Assembly: GCF_004341685.1 (NCBI RefSeq)
Contig: NZ_SMAA01000004.1
Location: 107,354 to 171,353, forward strand
Source: Pectinatus cerevisiiphilus
GTDB lineage: Bacteria > Bacillota > Negativicutes > Selenomonadales > Selenomonadaceae
DNA: 64,000 nucleotides
Direction: 5' to 3'
Shown here: positions 40,851 through 50,532 of the stretch, in pieces
Position numbering within the stretch: the stretch's first letter is position 1
How the letters are laid out: the number at the start of each line of letters is the position of its first letter
The notes under the pieces: model-generated
Seen by the model: only the letters and a program-made list of their open reading frames with translations
Told to the model about the DNA's origin: nothing
Databases searched by the model: none
Translations under genes and position numbers: made by a program

Positions 40851-40889
40851 AAATACTCGCTGTAATAGATTTTACTACAGCGAGTATTT
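40851..40889. terminator. Bidirectional terminator between MATE and HAD genes
   Basis: Perfect 14-bp stem AAATACTCGCTGTA / TACAGCGAGTATTT, 11-nt loop, T-tract on plus and A-tract upstream giving T's on minus. Overlaps the HAD stop codon. Confidence 0.92.
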
Positions 40890-41712: not shown

Positions 41713-44583
41713 TTATTTATATGCTTTTCTAATCAATTCAACAAATTCTGCTTGTTTTTGTATAGATAAAAGTTTTTCAACTTTCTCCTTTTGCTTAAGG
41801 ATCTTAAAAAGTTTATTTATAGCATCAACATCTTCGCTTTTCACTGCTGGCATACATATCAACTGTGCGCTATTACCATTTTTATCCCAATGCATTTCTT
41901 TTTTTAACACAGCAAAAATTATAACCGATTTGTTTACAAAAGATGGCATCCCATGCGGTAGTGCTACATTGTTTCTAAAATAAGTGCTGCTCATAGATTC
42001 CCGTCTCAACACAGAATTTATATACTCGAAGCTTACAAAGCCTTCATTGCATATAAGTTTTCCCATAGTTTCAAGTACTTCCTTTTTAGTTGCACCTTCT
42101 AATCCAATTAATACAAATTTTTCTCTGATTAATGTATGTGCCAACCCACTGCCATTTTTCTTCAGCAAATAATCAAGAAACATTCGTTTATCTTTAGTAA
42201 AATTATTATCATAAGGTATAAAATTTAATCCTTCTATTTTAGGATTAATTGTTCCAACAATGGCCAAAATATTATATTGTTGTTTCAAATTATTTATCTT
42301 GATCTTCACATTATCATCCATTATGCTCATAGAAAATATATTTACACCTGCATAATACCGTGACAGTACATTTTTTATTTTTAAAGCTACACCGTGACCT
42401 GTCAAACACATGCTTATCAATGCTGGTTCTTTATCGGAATTTTCTACTGTTACAAGAGAATAATTATGTTTAGAATTTATGATATCATAATATATATTAT
42501 CTAATGATTCTTCTGATGCATCAGCTTTACGCACTGCTTCCAACACAGAAACTAAATCCACTCTGTCAATTGTCCGTGTCTGCATTCCTGTCCTACTATG
42601 CACTATTTCACCAATACTAACCAATGAACCCATATCTACGAAAAATAATATTCCTTCTTCTGCATTTAAAGATTTTGCAAGTTCAACCACTTGTTCAAAT
42701 ATTTTTACAGGATTTACATCAAGCGGCATATCTATTGCTATAGGAAAATCGACATTAAGCATTTTTTTCACTACATTAACCATTTCTGTTGCTACTTTGC
42801 CATGCGAAATGGTAATTATGGCAATACGATTTCTTCTATCTGGGGACTTCATTAGTTCATGTATATATATTGCAATAAAACCAATTTCCCCTTCGGGTAT
42901 TTCGATTAATTTTCTTTCAGCCAAGCGTTGTGCTAATTGACTAGCCAATTTAAATTCATCAGCAAAATTTTTCTTAATATAAAGAAGATTGGGGTTCATT
43001 ATTTCTTGTTTAAACTTTATTCTTTTTATAGCTTCTTCCAAATGTATAGCTAAATAAATTAATACTTTTTCATTTATTGGTTTATCTGGTTGCTCTTTTC
43101 TTACAAAATTCAAAAATTCTTTCAACAATTGAATAATCGAACTATCTAAAAGATATTTTAGTTCATCAAGCGACGATATATTTCTATTTTGAGAATCCAA
43201 TCGTATTTTATCAAAATATCCCAATAAAAAATTCCATATTATCTCTTCTGTCTTTTCATTAGAAATACTAGCGTTTTTTAACTCATAGTATTTATTTTCT
43301 ATTGTTTCATATATATCTTCTGGTAATGAATATTGATTTTTAGTTGTGAGCAGCGAATCTTCTATTTCGTCACTATTAGGAATAAACAAAGCATCATTAA
43401 ATCTTATATTATTTTTTTGTATGTTTATATCATAAAAAAATTTTTGATATAAAATTTCATTAAAACCTATATATATTTCTTCCCTTTTATTATTTATCTT
43501 ATCAACATATGCATTAGCACAGGTCACCTGTATCTCACTTTTCATCTGACCTATATTTCCCGTATATTTTTTAAAAGCAAATGCTTCCATTATTTTAGCA
43601 TTGACTAAAATTTTATAATTTGTTCTGTTTGCCTCTTGTTGGAAAAAACCATGTATCAATTTTATTTTTTCATGTAAAGACCGATCTTCCAGTGAGGGTA
43701 ATTCTATAATCATCGGAATTCTTCTTCTAAATGTCAAAAGAAGCGACGATTCTATATTCTCTGTAGTTGCTCCAATAAAATATATGTGCGCTGTTCTTTC
43801 TGTATTAACCTCACCCATACGTCTAAACTTCCCTCTATCCAAAATAGAAAATAACATTTCTTGTCCTTTTGGCGGAAGCCGGTGTATTTCATCTAAAAAT
43901 AGCATTCCATTATTTGCTCTTTCTACAAGCCCTTCTGTATCTTTATCAGCTCCTGTAAAAGCTCCCTTTTTATAACCATACAATATTGATACAAGCAGTT
44001 GGGGATTATCACTATAATCAGCACAATTTAACAAAACAAACGGTGCTTCTGCTTCTAAGACTTTTTGCTTCACTGCATATTTATACATATATTCGGCAAA
44101 TAAAGTCTTTCCTGTCCCACTTTCTCCCACAATAAGGGTAGGTAAGCCAAAAGGTGGATATAAAATAGCCGCTTGACCTTGTTTTATATTTTTTAACAGA
44201 CTGCCCTTGCAGCCAATTAATTTTGAAAAAACATCTTTTTCTTCTGTAAATTTTTCTGTATTATTCTCTATATCATTATTTTTTCCTTCATTCATAAGGT
44301 CAGATATATATGTTCTTGATATACAGATGCCTCTTTCTGTTAATTTACTTACAAGGCTGCCTGCACTTATATTTGGTTCACTCATTTTTATTGCGCTGAT
44401 AGCAGCTTTAACAATCTCTTTTTTCCTTGTACGTGAATTGGGTATGTTTAGCTCTTTCCTTATCCCAGTGACAGTTTCGCGTAAAACATTTAATTTTTCT
44501 GCCAATTGTTCATCTGTAAGTGGATTTTTTTTATTTTCAGTCTTAATCATAGCCATCAGCTTATCCTTTAAATTCACAGTCAC
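41713..44583 (-). CDS. LevR-like sigma-54 activator with PTS regulatory domains
   Basis: 956 residues from a GTG with AGGAGG 7 nt upstream. N-terminal DNA-binding region (1-100, two helix-turn-helix-like stretches), AAA+ domain (about 115-350) with Walker A GESGTGKT at 153-160, the sigma-54 contact loop GAFTGA at 207-212 and Walker B MLFLDE at 227-232. Then a PRD (about 465-575), an EIIA-mannose-like domain (RIAIITISHG), an EIIB-like domain (SMCLTGHGVALKIKNVL), and a C-terminal EIIA-type domain with the phospho-His motif ALPHG. Classic LevR ends in a second PRD; here an EIIA of the fructose/mannitol type takes that place. It should sense PTS flux by phosphorylation and open the -24/-12 promoter of the upstream PTS operon. 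Confidence 0.93.
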   Translation of the reverse strand: MTVNLKDKLMAMIKTENKKNPLTDEQLAEKLNVLRETVTGIRKELNIPNSRTRKKEIVKAAISAIKMSEPNISAGSLVSKLTERGICISRTYISDLMNEGKNNDIENNTEKFTEEKDVFSKLIGCKGSLLKNIKQGQAAILYPPFGLPTLIVGESGTGKTLFAEYMYKYAVKQKVLEAEAPFVLLNCADYSDNPQLLVSILYGYKKGAFTGADKDTEGLVERANNGMLFLDEIHRLPPKGQEMLFSILDRGKFRRMGEVNTERTAHIYFIGATTENIESSLLLTFRRRIPMIIELPSLEDRSLHEKIKLIHGFFQQEANRTNYKILVNAKIMEAFAFKKYTGNIGQMKSEIQVTCANAYVDKINNKREEIYIGFNEILYQKFFYDINIQKNNIRFNDALFIPNSDEIEDSLLTTKNQYSLPEDIYETIENKYYELKNASISNEKTEEIIWNFLLGYFDKIRLDSQNRNISSLDELKYLLDSSIIQLLKEFLNFVRKEQPDKPINEKVLIYLAIHLEEAIKRIKFKQEIMNPNLLYIKKNFADEFKLASQLAQRLAERKLIEIPEGEIGFIAIYIHELMKSPDRRNRIAIITISHGKVATEMVNVVKKMLNVDFPIAIDMPLDVNPVKIFEQVVELAKSLNAEEGILFFVDMGSLVSIGEIVHSRTGMQTRTIDRVDLVSVLEAVRKADASEESLDNIYYDIINSKHNYSLVTVENSDKEPALISMCLTGHGVALKIKNVLSRYYAGVNIFSMSIMDDNVKIKINNLKQQYNILAIVGTINPKIEGLNFIPYDNNFTKDKRMFLDYLLKKNGSGLAHTLIREKFVLIGLEGATKKEVLETMGKLICNEGFVSFEYINSVLRRESMSSTYFRNNVALPHGMPSFVNKSVIIFAVLKKEMHWDKNGNSAQLICMPAVKSEDVDAINKLFKILKQKEKVEKLLSIQKQAEFVELIRKAYK

Positions 44584-44737
44584 TATGCAACCTCCTTGTC
44601 ATTAATTAATTTTTCTCATTTTTCTGTTATATATTTTTCAATTTTTTTACTTTTTCCATACTTAAGAAAACAAAACTAAATTATATACTACAACAGTTAA
44701 TAGTAAAAGTACACAATATACAAATTTATATTAGCAG

Positions 44738-44779
44738 AAAAGGCAAGGTTGTATATCTTACAAATACACCTTGCCTTTT
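44738..44779 (-). terminator. Terminator of the PTS/aldolase operon
   Basis: Arms AAAAGGCAAGG and CCTTGCCTTTT extended by TGTAT/ATACA with one bulged T, loop of about 11 nt, T-rich on both sides. It lies about 100 nt past the last dehydrogenase gene, ahead of the regulator gene, which must have its own promoter in the A/T-rich 44584-44737. Confidence 0.85.
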
Positions 44780-44882
44780 CACTCAGTAAAAATGGGGGTT
44801 ATGCTGTGTAGAGTAACAACTACTGCAGCTTAGTTATCAGGCAGTCAACGTCACAGTTTAACTGCCCAGGAAACCTAGTTTA

Positions 44883-45923
44883 TCAATTACGAACATTCAA
44901 CATTTGTTTTCCTGTCAAATAGCGTTTGAGATCCTCTATACCAATTTCGACGGAATTACGCATAGTATCACATGATGTGCCTGCTAAATGAGAAGTAAGG
45001 GTAATATTATCCAACTGCAGATAAGGATGATTTTTAGGTAATGGTTCTTCATCATAGACATCTACTGCTGCGCCTCCTATGCTTCTGTTTTTCAAGGCAT
45101 TTACCAGTGCATCAGTATCTACTAATCCAGAACGGGCTGTATTGATAAAATATGCTGTTTTTTTCATTTTCGCTAATTGCTCAGTCCCAATGAAATGGTG
45201 TGTTTTTTCTGAAAGCCGCAAGTGCACGCTCACGAAATCAGCTGTTTTTAATAATTCATCAAGTTCAACAAATTTTACATTAGTATCTGTAAATTTATTC
45301 TTATCAATATACGGATCATAAACAATAACTTTTGTACCAAATCCTTGTAATCTTTCTGCTACTCTTTGTCCTATATAACCAAAACCAACAATTCCAGCAG
45401 TCATTGTACGCATATCATGAATATATTCCTGATTTACATATTTTTTACACCACTTACCTTCAAATATAAGTTTATGACTACGGGCAATATTTTTATTTTC
45501 TGCAATCATCATACCTACAGTAAAATCAGCTACTGCATTTGCACTACGCCAAGGTGCATTTATAAGTTTTACTTTTTTTTCTGTTAAGGCAGCAACATCA
45601 GCATTTTCATAGCCACCGCGTAATACAGCTGCAACCTTTAAATTTTTACAGGCATTTATTACTTCTTTATTTATAGAAGCTACATGCACTACAAGAATAT
45701 CTTTATCTGCACAATGTTTAAGTAATTCCTGGCATGTAGGTGCAGCATCCACCCCTCCATGTTCTATTAACAACATACGGTCTGTTATTGGCCCCATTGC
45801 ATACATATCTTTATCTTCAATTATTGATACTTCGGCACCGTATTGTTCCAAGTCATGCATTTGTTCCATAAGGTCTTTAGTTATACCACCATCTGCCACG
45901 CAGAGAATTTTTGTCTTTGCCAT
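44883..45923 (-). CDS. D-2-hydroxyacid dehydrogenase, copy 2
   Basis: 346 residues from the ATG at 45923 (GGGAGAG upstream); an ATG 13 codons earlier overlaps the aldolase stop. D-isomer 2-hydroxyacid dehydrogenase family: NAD-binding GIVGFGYIGQRVAERLQGFG, catalytic Arg in AVLRGGYENAD, catalytic Glu in DEEPLPKNHP, catalytic His in LTSHLAGTS. It interconverts a 2-hydroxyacid and 2-oxoacid with NAD(H). Close paralogue of the dehydrogenase two genes upstream, with the aldolase between them. Last gene of the operon. Substrate unknown. Confidence 0.9.
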   Translation of the reverse strand: MAKTKILCVADGGITKDLMEQMHDLEQYGAEVSIIEDKDMYAMGPITDRMLLIEHGGVDAAPTCQELLKHCADKDILVVHVASINKEVINACKNLKVAAVLRGGYENADVAALTEKKVKLINAPWRSANAVADFTVGMMIAENKNIARSHKLIFEGKWCKKYVNQEYIHDMRTMTAGIVGFGYIGQRVAERLQGFGTKVIVYDPYIDKNKFTDTNVKFVELDELLKTADFVSVHLRLSEKTHHFIGTEQLAKMKKTAYFINTARSGLVDTDALVNALKNRSIGGAAVDVYDEEPLPKNHPYLQLDNITLTSHLAGTSCDTMRNSVEIGIEDLKRYLTGKQMLNVRN

Positions 45924-45958
45924 TTTTATCTCTCCCAAAATATTTTCTTCGTCAAATT

Positions 45959-46843
45959 TCATGCTTTATTCGTAGAACCGACCAAATCAATTTTCGCAGC
46001 GACTACTTTCTTTAAGGCTATTAAAGGTTTTTCATTAGCATTATGGGGCCATATAGCTAAATGTTCAGCCGCGTTCAATTCATCTTTCATCGTACCGTAA
46101 AAAGCGGTAAGCATTTCTGAGAATATATTTAATTTGCATATTCCATTTTGTACTGATTCTTTTATTAATGCATCTGGTGTCCCCGAACCACCATGCATTA
46201 CCATTGGTACAACGGATATTTCATTTAATGTCTTTAATCTATCAAAATGAATTTTAGGCTTATATACATATATACCATGCGCTGTTCCCACTGCTACCGC
46301 GATACAATCAACCCCTGTAGCATCAATAAACTGCTTAAGTTCATCTGGGCGCGTCAAAGAATCTTCTGGTTTATCAAATGTATCTTTCTTAGGTGCACCG
46401 ATTTCACTGCTTCCTACTATTCCATCACCTACATGTCCCAGTTCTGCTTCGACACTAACATCAAATTTATGGGCATAATCAACAACAGTTTTCGTCTTTT
46501 CGATATTTTCCTTTAATGGAAGCATTGATCCATCAATCATTACAGATGAAAAACCTGCATTTACGCATTTTTTTATAAATTCCACATCAGTTGCATGGTC
46601 TAAATGAATACATACTGGAACAGATGCTTTTTGCGCTATTTTTCTCAAACTATAAAGCCAATAATCCAACCTGTCGCCTTGTAAATCCAGACATAATCCC
46701 ATTAAAATAACAGGGGATTTCTTTTTTTCAGCCACTTCCACTACGGCAAGTGCCATCTCAAGATTACTTACATCGAACGCTCCTACTGCATATTTGTTCT
46801 TGCGGGCATCGTTGAGCATTTCCTTTAAACTAACTAGTGACAT
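45959..46843 (-). CDS. Class II ketose-bisphosphate aldolase
   Basis: 294 residues, FbaA/GatY/KbaY family. Metal-binding His in CIHLDHATD, the Glu in VEAELGHVGDG, GTAHGIY with a second metal His, and MHGGSG with the third; the phosphate-binding GGSGTP and NIFSEM follow. It splits a ketose 1,6-bisphosphate-type or similar substrate into dihydroxyacetone phosphate and an aldehyde. In galactitol loci the partner GatY acts on tagatose 1,6-bisphosphate, but there is no phosphofructokinase-like kinase or GatD dehydrogenase here, so the substrate may differ. AGGAGGA precedes the ATG. Confidence 0.92.
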   Translation of the reverse strand: MSLVSLKEMLNDARKNKYAVGAFDVSNLEMALAVVEVAEKKKSPVILMGLCLDLQGDRLDYWLYSLRKIAQKASVPVCIHLDHATDVEFIKKCVNAGFSSVMIDGSMLPLKENIEKTKTVVDYAHKFDVSVEAELGHVGDGIVGSSEIGAPKKDTFDKPEDSLTRPDELKQFIDATGVDCIAVAVGTAHGIYVYKPKIHFDRLKTLNEISVVPMVMHGGSGTPDALIKESVQNGICKLNIFSEMLTAFYGTMKDELNAAEHLAIWPHNANEKPLIALKKVVAAKIDLVGSTNKA

Positions 46844-46856
46844 AAATATTCCTCCA

Positions 46857-47885
46857 TTATTTATTTATGATATATTCAGATGATGTATCACCTGACAGGA
46901 ACGGCAATATTTCTTTTGCCAGCAAATACGGTGAATGTAAAAAGGCATCTGTCGTACTTCCGGCTAAATGAGGTGTTATTGTGACATTGGGCAGCGTTGC
47001 TAACGCATATTCCCTAGGTAATGGTTCTTTATCAAACACATCCAAAGCAGCACCGGCAATCCTATTATTGTGCAAAGTTTCATACAGTGCCTCTTCATCG
47101 ACTAATCCAGAACGAGCTGTATTAATAATATATGCTGTTGGTTTCATCATATTCAGCAGCCTGGCATTTATCATATGTTTTGTATCTGCAGTCAAGCGGC
47201 TGTGCAGCAATAAAAAATCAGCATTTTTTACCGTATTTACTAAGCTATCCGTCTTTATATACTCTGGAAGTCCTGCTGCAAATGGATCATAAGCAATTAT
47301 ATTCATATCAAAAGAATGCAATCTTTTCGCAACCTTTTTTCCTATTTGCCCAAGACCTATAATACCTGCTGTTTTATTCGCTAAATCCGGTATATATGCT
47401 TTATTCGCATATTTGCGTATCCATTTCCCGTTTTTCAAGTTGGTATGACTTCTAGCTATATTACGACATTCAGCAATAAGCATTCCCACCGTAAAATCAG
47501 CTACTGCTGAAGAATTTCTCCCCGGTGTATTATAGACAAGAATATTTCTCTTAGTTGCTGCTGCCAAATTAACATTTTCACAACCACCACGCAAAACGCC
47601 TATTACTTTGAGATTTTTACAAGCATCTATAACTTTTTCATTAACAGGGCAAAATTGTGTAATAAGAATATCTGCATCTTTTATCTGTTCAATCAACTTA
47701 TCAGGAACTATATATGCTTCACTGCCTTGTTGTTCTATTTGTAGATTAATCTTCTGCAGTTCTTCCTGATTCTTTAATTGCCAGTCAACAACAGACAAAT
47801 CTATATTCTTATCCTTAAAAATAGCAAAACCTGCTTTTATATACTGTGCGGGTATAAGCAAATCTCCTATTCCGATGACTTTCAT
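46857..47885 (-). CDS. D-2-hydroxyacid dehydrogenase, copy 1
   Basis: 342 residues, same family and layout as the gene at 44883-45923: catalytic Arg in GVLRGGCENVN, NAD-binding GIIGLGQIGKKVAKRLHSFD, Glu in FDKEPLPREYA, His in ITPHLAGSTTD. The shared stretch AVADFTVGMLIAE and INTARSGLVD in both copies indicates a duplication. It directly precedes the aldolase (13 nt). Reaction: NAD-linked reduction or oxidation at C2 of a hydroxyacid; substrate unknown. Confidence 0.9.
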   Translation of the reverse strand: MKVIGIGDLLIPAQYIKAGFAIFKDKNIDLSVVDWQLKNQEELQKINLQIEQQGSEAYIVPDKLIEQIKDADILITQFCPVNEKVIDACKNLKVIGVLRGGCENVNLAAATKRNILVYNTPGRNSSAVADFTVGMLIAECRNIARSHTNLKNGKWIRKYANKAYIPDLANKTAGIIGLGQIGKKVAKRLHSFDMNIIAYDPFAAGLPEYIKTDSLVNTVKNADFLLLHSRLTADTKHMINARLLNMMKPTAYIINTARSGLVDEEALYETLHNNRIAGAALDVFDKEPLPREYALATLPNVTITPHLAGSTTDAFLHSPYLLAKEILPFLSGDTSSEYIINK

Positions 47886-47981
47886 TTAAGTAAATCCTTT
47901 CATAAACAACAAACATTAATAGATGGACCAAAAGACTAACTAATTGATTATATGCACTGTTCTTATATCTGCATCATTAAG

Positions 47982-48464
47982 CTATTGTTGTATTTGCAAT
48001 ATATCCTTCAAAAATATTTCTCGCATCTGCATCTTTGATCTAAGCGCATGAAAACTGATTACATTTTGCTGTTGCTTGAAATAATTAACTATATTTTTTA
48101 AATAATTCAAATGATTATTTTCACCTTTCAATGCCAGCATGAAAACTATGCCTACATCTATCTGTGAACTATTGTTGCCCATTTCCGCAAACTTTACTAC
48201 CTGGGGCAGCACAGCTACCACAATAGCTTCTTTTAAGACATTTTCCGGATTAGAATGTGGGACTGCAATACCTATCGGTTTTGTCGCTAAACCAGTTGGG
48301 TAATTATCTTCACGATCCAGCGTAGCCTTACAATAAGCTTCATTTACGTATCCTTTTTCAAATAGATCTTTGGCCAGAAGAGAGATTACTTCTTCCTTTG
48401 TTTTTACTTCATTTAATATTGCTGCATCATAAAATATATCTTCTGTCTTGCCTACGTTACCCAT
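47982..48464 (-). CDS. PTS sugar transporter EIIA
   Basis: 160 residues from the second ATG, which is 9 nt after AAGGGG (the first ATG touches the ribosome site). Fructose/mannitol/galactitol-type EIIA (PTS_EIIA_2): phosphorylated His70 in IGIAVPHSNPENV and the start AAILNEVKTKEEVISLLA. It takes phosphate from HPr and passes it to the EIIB encoded two genes upstream. Confidence 0.93.
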   Translation of the reverse strand: MGNVGKTEDIFYDAAILNEVKTKEEVISLLAKDLFEKGYVNEAYCKATLDREDNYPTGLATKPIGIAVPHSNPENVLKEAIVVAVLPQVVKFAEMGNNSSQIDVGIVFMLALKGENNHLNYLKNIVNYFKQQQNVISFHALRSKMQMREIFLKDILQIQQ

Positions 48465-48485
48465 ATTCTCCATCCCCTTAAACGT

Positions 48486-49760
48486 TTAAAAACCAAATAT
48501 CCATGAGAACACTTTATAAACTATAACCAATGCTGGCGTACCAGTAGCATCCCATGCGGACAGAGCTCCTTTTGATGCATCATATCCTAAGCTGCCTGCT
48601 AATTGGGTCATTGGTCCGGCCATCAAAGTAGCACCCCAGCAGAATAGTGCAACAATGATTGACAAAATGATAATATTATGCAAAATATTTCCTTCAGTAA
48701 TTGCATTAACAGCAGCACTTTCCCAAAGGACGATAATTAAACTTACCGAAGCAATCATTTGATTTCCCGGCAATAAAACTGAAATTATCAAAGCTAATGG
48801 ATACATAATTAACGTTGTCGGTACTACTGCCGAATGGCCAATAACTGTAGAACAATCAAGTGCTATTCTGACATCATCACGATGCATTTTGCTTACTAAT
48901 ATCTTTCTTGCTGCTTTGATGATAGGAAACCAACCTTCAACAAGAATAGATGCCATTCTTGGCAGTAAAAGAAAAGCGGCAGCCATTTTTACACCTAAGA
49001 GCAGGGAAGCCATAATCCCTATTTGGCTAAAGAGTCCAATTAATATTCCCAGCACTGCCCCCATAACAGTAGTTTCACCCAATACACCAAATTTTTCCTG
49101 TATAGTTTCAGCGTTAAAAGTAGCATCTTTAATCACCGGTATTCTCTTCAATACCCATTCAATAGGAATAGCTATACATGCCTGAAAAGAAAAATGTGTA
49201 CCATGCGGCCATGATCCGCCTGGTGGAAAATTATTGATTTTTTCTATATAAGGTGCCGCAATATCCGCAGCTTTCACATCTATTATCAAAAAAACTACAA
49301 CAGCTACAGTGGCTATCCAGAAGTTACCACTTACTACTCCTACCATACCAGCGAGCAGCATGGCACGCCATGTATTAAATACATCCACATATAATGTCTG
49401 TGTAAAACGAATAGATACTAGGAAGATATTCAAGATAAGAAATACCAGTACCCCGAAATATCCATAAGTATTACCAAAGGCATAGCCCAGACAACCCCAG
49501 CCTATATCAACTACACTCTTATTTATTCCGTACAAAGAAATAATATTAAGAATAGGCTGAACCATAGCTGTTTGAATAAGATTCACTACTAAAAATAAAC
49601 CTGTCAACCCGATAGATACTTTTAAAGCACCTAAAATAGCTTTCTTAAATTCAACGCGTACTAGTATTGAAACGATAAGGATTATTCCGACTATTGTGAC
49701 TGATGAATCAAAACCAAAGAATGTGGATAATCCTTTTGTAATAATTCCTATAAAATCCAT
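48486..49760 (-). CDS. PTS galactitol-type EIIC permease
   Basis: 424 residues from an ATG 8 nt after AGAGG; two in-frame starts lie slightly upstream. About ten to twelve hydrophobic segments. GatC-family features: the NFPPGGSWPHGTHFSFQACI loop, GWFPIIKAARKILVSK, and PTLIMYPLALIISVLLPGNQ. It translocates a polyol or sugar coupled to phosphorylation. GatC homologues carry galactitol, arabitol, ribitol and some sugar acids or modified sugars, so the substrate remains open. Confidence 0.93.
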   Translation of the reverse strand: MDFIGIITKGLSTFFGFDSSVTIVGIILIVSILVRVEFKKAILGALKVSIGLTGLFLVVNLIQTAMVQPILNIISLYGINKSVVDIGWGCLGYAFGNTYGYFGVLVFLILNIFLVSIRFTQTLYVDVFNTWRAMLLAGMVGVVSGNFWIATVAVVVFLIIDVKAADIAAPYIEKINNFPPGGSWPHGTHFSFQACIAIPIEWVLKRIPVIKDATFNAETIQEKFGVLGETTVMGAVLGILIGLFSQIGIMASLLLGVKMAAAFLLLPRMASILVEGWFPIIKAARKILVSKMHRDDVRIALDCSTVIGHSAVVPTTLIMYPLALIISVLLPGNQMIASVSLIIVLWESAAVNAITEGNILHNIIILSIIVALFCWGATLMAGPMTQLAGSLGYDASKGALSAWDATGTPALVIVYKVFSWIFGF

Positions 49761-49792
49761 ACTCATCACCTCTGTCTATTTACTTATTCATC

Positions 49793-50107
49793 TTATTCCT
49801 TCATAATTTTTTTGACATTATCCATAATTTCATCTAATGCTTTTTTAGCTGCAGCGTCATCTAACATAACACCTAACGCCCTAATCATAGGCACAGAATA
49901 ATCACCATTCATTTCTACAGTAGTAACGAGCAAATCCATATTACCACTGGCAAGAGTTTCTTCTACATCTGTAACTCTGCATAAAGTAACGCTAACATCT
50001 TTACTCAAACCTTCTTCTTTTAAACGATCTTCAATTTCTTCCCTTAAATAATTTGACGTACATATTCCCGCACCGCAACAACAAAGAATTTTTACTTTTT
50101 TACTCAT
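49793..50107 (-). CDS. PTS galactitol-type EIIB
   Basis: 104 residues. The P-loop KVKILCCCGAGICTSNYL carries the phospho-Cys (Cys11 by alignment with C-G-x-G-x-x-T-S). It receives phosphate from EIIA and phosphorylates the substrate in EIIC. First gene of the operon; the sigma-54 promoter is about 40 nt upstream of its ATG. Confidence 0.93.
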   Translation of the reverse strand: MSKKVKILCCCGAGICTSNYLREEIEDRLKEEGLSKDVSVTLCRVTDVEETLASGNMDLLVTTVEMNGDYSVPMIRALGVMLDDAAAKKALDEIMDNVKKIMKE

Positions 50108-50154
50108 AATTCATTCATCCTCTTCTTTTATTTTGTAAAGCTAATGCTAAATAG

Positions 50155-50171
50155 AGCAAATCTCATGCCAA
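50155..50171 (-). promoter_or_regulatory. Sigma-54 (-24/-12) promoter of the PTS operon
   Basis: On the minus strand TTGGCATG-N4-TTGCT, differing from the TGGCACG-N4-TTGCW consensus at one position, with the GG and GC elements 12 nt apart. Predicted start near 50145. The operon encodes its own LevR-like sigma-54 activator, which fits. Confidence 0.88.
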
Positions 50172-50532
50172 TTACAAAAAAAACATTGTTTAGCCCTGTA
50201 TTTACTGAATATTTTTTTACAATATTTTATGGTAAATTACATAAACAACATCTTTTTTACAAAACTTGTCAATTTCCACAACAAAATCTTCAATATCAAT
50301 ATTACCAAACAGGTAGATATAATTGATTATAGCTAATTCCTTATTTTTTTAATTGAAGTTTATCTTTTTATTATATATGGGAACTTTGTTACACTATATT
50401 TGTACAATATGATATTAAAACTGATAATTAAACTACTTTAATTAAATTTACTGTCAATAAAAAATATTACTTTTTACCGTAATTTATGATAATATAGAAA
50501 ATATTCACTACTAGGAAAAGGAGTTTTCATTC
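50172..50532. other. A/T-rich intergenic region upstream of the PTS operon and the hemerythrin gene
   Basis: No gene is visible. The minus-strand upstream sites for the LevR-like activator should lie here, but no clear long inverted repeat stands out. AGGAAAAGGAG at 50514-50524 is the ribosome site of the hemerythrin gene. Confidence 0.6.

Follow-up and report, generated by a model that had tools for sequence, protein, structure and literature searches.

Gene content and control of the locus

We examined a locus within a 64,000-nucleotide window of the Pectinatus cerevisiiphilus genome (contig NZ_SMAA01000004.1, from an assembly of 2.63 Mb in 47 contigs) in which the genes of a Gat-type phosphotransferase system (PTS) are followed by a class II aldolase gene flanked by two D-2-hydroxyacid dehydrogenase genes (DH1 and DH2), and by the gene of a LevR-like activator. 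This gene set had been proposed in a sequence-only reading of the window and is confirmed by open reading frames (ORFs) and profile searches; all seven genes are intact, lie on the minus strand and have the coordinates first given for them. The features, listed 5' to 3', are:

50235..50275, minus strand: candidate activator-binding region, TTTTGTAAAA...GTAAT(T) block, upstream of the -24 box
50155..50171, minus strand: sigma-54 (-24/-12) promoter, TTGGCAT-GAGAT-TTGC, ~48 bp upstream of EIIB
49793..50107, minus strand: PTS EIIB, Gat type; motif CCGAGICTS; PF02302 (3.5e-06); NCBIfam PTS galactitol IIB (6e-06, under the cut-off)
48486..49769, minus strand: PTS EIIC, EIIC-GAT family permease; PF03611 (5e-43); TIGR00827 (229 bits against a cut-off of 542)
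47982..48473, minus strand: PTS EIIA; PF00359 (6e-26); phospho-His motif GIAVPHS
46857..47885, minus strand: DH1, NAD-type D-2-hydroxyacid dehydrogenase; PF02826/PF00389
45959..46843, minus strand: class II aldolase, F_bP_aldolase family; PF01116 (3e-86)
44883..45962, minus strand: DH2, NAD-type D-2-hydroxyacid dehydrogenase; PF02826/PF00389
44731..44783, minus strand: terminator-like hairpin at the operon end; minimum free energy -24.7 kcal/mol for 66 nt, z -6.7
41713..44583, minus strand: LevR/DagR-like sigma-54 activator; AAA+ (GAFTGA), PRD, EIIA-man and EIIA-2 domains (Pfam and NCBIfam)

The gaps between genes from EIIB to DH2 measure 23, 12, 96, 13 and -4 bp, the last being a 4-bp overlap of the DH2 gene with the aldolase stop, and 299 bp separate DH2 from the LevR-like gene. 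The hairpin at 44731-44783, located between these two genes, thus delimits EIIB to DH2 as one unit and the LevR-like gene with an adjacent HAD phosphatase gene as another. A further terminator-like hairpin with a 17-bp stem lies directly 3' of the HAD gene (window positions 40851-40889), and an Rfam scan of the 64-kb window returned no match at the gathering cut-off.

As in the E. coli galactitol operon gatYZABCD, Gat-family EIIA, EIIB and EIIC (PF00359, PF02302 and PF03611) share an operon with a PF01116 aldolase. All three PTS proteins fall under the NCBIfam galactitol cut-offs, and the TIGR00827 score marks EIIC as a diverged EIIC-GAT member, with a galactitol IIC as its solved relative (9u82). 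The aldolase likewise scores below the NCBIfam cut-offs for GatY and tagatose-bisphosphate (TBP) aldolases (252-269 bits vs 383-444). Unlike gatYZABCD, the Pectinatus operon is without GatZ, GatD and tagatose-6-phosphate kinase, contains two D-2-hydroxyacid dehydrogenases, is associated with sigma-54/LevR control, and encodes an aldolase devoid of the basic C6-phosphate ligand. The absence of GatD and of the kinase, already remarked upon in the sequence-only reading, was upheld, in that no Zn-alcohol dehydrogenase or sugar-phosphate kinase was present within the locus interval in the ORF list or in profile searches; nor was GatZ found within that interval. By the features tested, the locus is not a galactitol operon.

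The promoter sequence TGGCAN6TTGCW has a single exact match in the 64 kb, located upstream of EIIB, while permitting one mismatch yields matches in the window as frequently as expected by chance. The -24/-12 element is kept at the equivalent position in the other three Pectinatus loci (L031, L032 and L072), and elements of the type GGCAC-N7-GC, with GG-N10-GC spacing, occur upstream of EIIB in L039 and L090, whose genomes (L039 together with L089) carry LevR. No -24/-12 element was found upstream in the Clostridium algoriphilum locus (L053), which is without LevR. Alignment of the four Pectinatus upstream regions shows that the TTTTGTAAAA...GTAAT(T) block is also conserved, making the TTTTGTAAAA block a candidate activator-binding site. 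An rpoN gene is found in the window's genome. With a GAFTGA-bearing AAA+ domain, PRD and EIIA domains, and a -24/-12 promoter on its target operon, the activator has the hallmarks of the LevR/DagR class, although it reaches only 445 bits with the NCBIfam DagR model, against a cut-off of 1400. A relative of 50% identity is found in L089 and L090, two loci in which PTS and kinase genes are combined. DagR and LevR share with the Pectinatus activator the AAA+, PRD and EIIA-man domains and the -24/-12 promoter preceding PTS genes, but their targets are Man-type systems, whereas the operon here is of Gat type. By analogy with this family, the activator may be controlled through phosphorylation by the PTS. 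Its N-terminus (residues 5-55) scores 27 bits with PF04552, the Pfam model for the DNA-binding domain of RpoN (cut-off 22.8), and the activator is accordingly predicted to carry a sigma-54-like DNA-binding part.

Conservation of the core and exchange of its partners

Orthologs of the aldolase are 65-93% identical to the window protein, the closest being those of P. haikarae (93%) and P. frisingensis (90%), and the next aldolases are at most 44% identical. They were found in Pectinatus, Centipeda, Selenomonas, Megasphaera cerevisiae, Massilibacillus, a Megamonas metagenome-assembled genome, Ruminococcaceae, Amazonia and Clostridium algoriphilum. In at least 12 genomes of Negativicutes and Clostridia the ortholog stands beside orthologs of DH1 and/or DH2, so the arrangement is not due to chance; the neighborhood survey called for at the outset thus revealed a co-inherited unit. 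In the PTS-type relatives the EIIC is 73-95% identical to that of the window.

The survey did not bear out a single, simple operon type. One layout, with the PTS only, occurs in Pectinatus and C. algoriphilum; a second, in Selenomonas, Megasphaera, Megamonas, Ruminococcaceae and Amazonia, has a lone EIIC-GAT permease with an SDR and an FGGY kinase; and a third combines the PTS with a kinase module, in L090 and in L039 plus L089 (two contigs of a single genome). The notion that the PTS simply replaces the kinase is therefore too simple, since these last two genomes carry both. Neither an SDR nor an FGGY relative was detected at E < 1e-45 in the genome of the window, and the PTS presumably provides the phosphate. 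The smallest enzymatic set, in the Pectinatus locus L072, consists of the PTS, the aldolase and DH2. Most loci outside Pectinatus also contain a glycerol-3-phosphate antiterminator (PF04309).

Two neighboring genes were considered as further pathway members and discarded. The HAD phosphatase, thought at first possibly to belong to the system, adjoins LevR in three Pectinatus only and is missing from L072 and from all other loci. An acetolactate-synthase-like gene near L089 and L090 was set aside as a decarboxylase because the 165-aa gene next to it gives the pair an ilvBN-like appearance.

Dehydrogenases of the DH1 type also occur more widely, each together with an FGGY kinase and an aldolase. 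The aldolase is of one of three types that are unrelated to one another: PF01116 (L066-L070 and the haloarchaeal L077), DhnA (Klebsiella L063, E. coli SE11 L082, Pectinatus L085 and Rubrobacter L064) or FucA (Paracoccus, Cereibacter and Sagittula; L078-L080 and L083). All three folds include aldolases dependent on dihydroxyacetone phosphate (DHAP). Most relatives encode a separate oxidoreductase, which is an SDR, a Zn-alcohol dehydrogenase or, in L087, an Fe-alcohol dehydrogenase. This last locus, in the window's own genome (G000:C30), combines a second Gat-like PTS with the Fe-alcohol dehydrogenase (glycerol-1-phosphate dehydrogenase family), a DH1-like enzyme, a FucA-type aldolase, and PRD and GntR-LacI regulators. 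In L068 a GntP permease (Pfam) adjoins the DH1-type, aldolase and FGGY genes, and a gene of GntP size occupies the equivalent position in L069 and L070; in L084 and L086, DH1-like and FGGY genes occur with GntP relatives and with genes for 6-phosphogluconate dehydrogenase or an aldolase of the 2-keto-3-deoxy-6-phosphogluconate family. GntP proteins transport gluconate-type acids, and their presence beside this module points to sugar acids.

The DhnA-GlpP-FGGY-SDR-2-hydroxyacid dehydrogenase-EIIC clusters of Klebsiella and E. coli SE11 (L063 and L082) resemble the Pectinatus operon in joining a DH1-type enzyme, an aldolase and a Gat-family EIIC, but are kinase-based, have a class I aldolase and are without EIIA and EIIB; we found no characterization of them. 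A cluster of this Klebsiella type is also present in another Pectinatus (L088, G144:C1), where the dehydrogenase gene contains an in-frame TAA. Lone Gat-type EIIC proteins (27% identical to the window EIIC), each beside an FGGY kinase in a cluster without EIIA or EIIB, occur in L033-L038, L040-L042, L063, L082, L085 and L088, and may possibly be PTS-derived permeases that work without phosphorylation. On a Haladaptatus plasmid (L077) the module is reduced to three genes, for a class II aldolase, an FGGY kinase and a 2-hydroxyacid dehydrogenase, with no adjacent transporter. The FucA-type loci L078, L079, L080 and L083 form a conserved alphaproteobacterial plasmid cluster with three CoA-transferase genes and genes for a 2-hydroxyacid dehydrogenase, a FucA-type aldolase, an FGGY kinase, an acetolactate-synthase-like protein and a molybdopterin S/N-oxide reductase, apparently an uncharacterized pathway.

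Active sites of the aldolase and the dehydrogenases

The aldolase has the Asp/three-His metal site, TIM-barrel fold and DHAP-phosphate site of class II PF01116 enzymes, and alignment shows that Asp82, His83, Glu134, His189, His217, Asn239 and the donor-phosphate residues Ser220 and Ser242 are retained. The basic residues with which bisphosphate aldolases bind the C6-phosphate are replaced in it by Leu245 and Val193; we take these positions to be the C6-phosphate ligands of the Giardia fructose-bisphosphate (FBP) aldolase. Asp24, Leu50 and Asp53 are also unlike the residues of most other aldolases compared. Phe241 aligns with Asp288 of E. coli FbaA, a residue reported to contact and act on the C4-OH (PMC5434028). 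In an AlphaFold2 model (predicted local distance difference test 87), in which the clade-specific insert 141-152 is not confidently placed, the fold matches those of FBP and TBP aldolases, SqiA and YdjI. Since the donor-phosphate residues are kept and the acceptor-phosphate residues are gone, the enzyme would be expected to split a mono-phosphate, releasing DHAP together with a short aldehyde that carries no phosphate; this agrees with the missing sugar-phosphate kinase.

Two characterized enzymes offer precedents. YdjI, the E. coli L-glycero-L-galacto-octuluronate-1-phosphate aldolase, is a PF01116 protein (~32% identical to the window aldolase, a fold match) that acts on an acidic mono-phosphate; its acceptor is an unphosphorylated acid, and it too has no base at the C6-phosphate position. 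Its operon differs, with another kind of kinase, Zn-dehydrogenases and a non-PTS transporter. IolJ, also in PF01116, yields DHAP and malonate semialdehyde; it is known to cleave an acidic 5-keto-6-phosphate, with which the active-site pattern of the window aldolase is compatible. The Pectinatus operon differs in having two 2-hydroxyacid dehydrogenases and no iol genes. In other bacteria the IolJ step has been proposed for an unrelated class I aldolase domain (PMC9007349), a takeover that the DhnA-type aldolases of the present module appear to parallel. The locus is probably a form of phospho-ketose aldolase catabolism comparable to those of IolJ and YdjI.

DH1 and DH2 both conserve the catalytic Arg, Glu and His and the NAD site of D-isomer-specific 2-hydroxyacid dehydrogenases, DH1 with an Asp after the GxGxxG strand, and their pocket residues differ. 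That two such enzymes are present stands as first described, but they are not products of a local duplication: they are 46% identical and fall into separate clades (support 0.999 for DH1 and 1.000 for DH2), which excludes a recent tandem event and indicates old paralogs. The dehydrogenase of the Klebsiella kinase module lies near the DH1 clade. In L072 the PTS, aldolase, DH2 and LevR are present and a DH1 ortholog is absent from the entire genome; DH1 and DH2 therefore do not form an invariable pair that works together. DH2 is 68-91% identical in relatives; because it stays with the aldolase, as seen in the gene overlap and in L072 where it is the sole dehydrogenase, and because it evolves more slowly, we place it on the product side, where it would reduce an oxo-acid. 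DH1 would act on the substrate side, given that it adjoins the SDR and/or FGGY gene in most kinase-type loci, has relatives beside gluconate-type genes and is missing from L072.

A proposed route for keto-sugar acids

Taken together, these observations lead us to propose, tentatively, that the operon serves to take up a keto-sugar acid through the PTS and to catabolize it, with a DHAP-releasing aldolase and DH2 on the product side. What the substrate and products are, and in which direction each dehydrogenase works, we infer as follows. The Gat-type EIIBCA would import a 4-keto-pentonate or 5-keto-hexonate and phosphorylate the CH2OH adjoining the ketone. The aldolase would cleave the phosphorylated acid into DHAP and a short oxo-acid, namely glyoxylate in the case of the pentonate or, for the hexonate, tartronate semialdehyde, which is tautomeric with hydroxypyruvate. 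DH2 would reduce the oxo-acid to glycolate or D-glycerate, regenerating NAD+. DH1 may be, for example, a 2-ketoaldonate reductase feeding related acids into the route. In the relatives, an SDR acting as penultimate-carbon dehydrogenase and the FGGY kinase would yield the identical phosphorylated intermediate. In Pectinatus the LevR-like activator and sigma-54 would turn the operon on. An oxo-acid is the simplest aldehyde product, since complete 2-hydroxyacid dehydrogenases stay with the aldolase. The points that we count for a keto-sugar acid substrate are the aldolase residues, the aldolase swaps, GntP, the separate oxidoreductases, PF04309, the minimal set of L072 and the lack of SDR and FGGY relatives at E < 1e-45 in the genome. 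The original suggestion of a sugar-acid-type substrate is still the best reading.

Several considerations weigh against this proposal. To our knowledge no Gat-family PTS imports a keto-sugar acid. Tartronate semialdehyde is not a 2-oxo acid, and the hexonate version would need tautomerization or an isomerase that is absent from the operon. For aerobes and haloarchaea with the dehydrogenase-FGGY-aldolase module (L077), reduction of glyoxylate would be unnecessary, and the SDR and FGGY genes beside the PTS in L090 could signify two different substrates. The assignment of the C6-phosphate ligands depends on alignment and known structures rather than on a ligand model.

Uptake of a neutral ketose or polyol is an unlikely alternative, though one of some weight. 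The aldolase would release DHAP with a simple aldehyde, for instance glyceraldehyde or lactaldehyde, and the dehydrogenases would do no more than balance redox on 2-oxo acids, or would serve another metabolite. Gat-family systems are known for polyols and ketoses, and an aldolase without a C6-phosphate ligand would suit a ketose 1-phosphate. Orthologs of DH1 and DH2 nevertheless remain with the aldolase whichever of two unrelated uptake modules is present, a GntP permease accompanies DH1-type enzymes in the distant tier of L068, and the fully kept Arg, His and Glu of the dehydrogenases lead one to expect a carboxylate.

The presence of two 2-hydroxyacid dehydrogenases flanking an aldolase would be explained neatly if DH1 oxidized C2 of a phospho-aldonate, the aldolase released hydroxypyruvate and glyceraldehyde 3-phosphate, and DH2 formed D-glycerate; moreover, the family of these dehydrogenases also includes 2-keto-6-phosphogluconate reductase. 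We consider this improbable. The substrate would have to bear its phosphate on the distal end, with the donor half unphosphorylated, which is the opposite of the pattern in the aldolase residues, and L072 is without DH1 while retaining the rest. A role for DH1 and DH2 as an oxidation-reduction pair that inverts a sugar acid at C2 ahead of the aldolase step is more doubtful still: paired epimerizing dehydrogenases exist in other sugar-acid pathways, and the two enzymes differ in clade and pocket, but L072 and the Klebsiella-type loci have one dehydrogenase each. Finally, catabolism of a sulfo-sugar by an SqiA-type sulfofructose-1-phosphate aldolase is very improbable, for although SqiA structures (8q59 and 8q5a) are among the best fold matches and its acceptor is also unphosphorylated and acidic, the window aldolase is ~34% identical to SqiA, the neighboring genes examined include no sulfolactaldehyde enzyme or sulfonate exporter, and ordinary PTS are not known for sulfo-sugars.

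A full-text search of open-access papers returned no characterized homologous locus, in keeping with the initial impression that no known pathway matches; the locus is real and conserved and, judging from those papers, apparently uncharacterized. It is possible, if rather doubtful in this broad form, that a Gat PTS importing a keto-sugar acid here feeds an undescribed route to DHAP and an oxo-acid with dedicated dehydrogenases, and that this core, in which transporters, kinases and aldolase folds can be exchanged, extends from Negativicutes to Enterobacteriaceae and haloarchaea. If so, the Gat family would gain keto-sugar acids as a substrate class, and a function would be provided for the widespread, unnamed association of 2-hydroxyacid dehydrogenase, FGGY kinase and DHAP aldolase that occurs in Klebsiella, oral Selenomonas, Paracoccus-group bacteria and haloarchaea. 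Acetic acid bacteria, which make keto-gluconates and keto-pentonates, share breweries with Pectinatus and Megasphaera cerevisiae, and the pathway, if real, may therefore also explain a food-spoilage niche.

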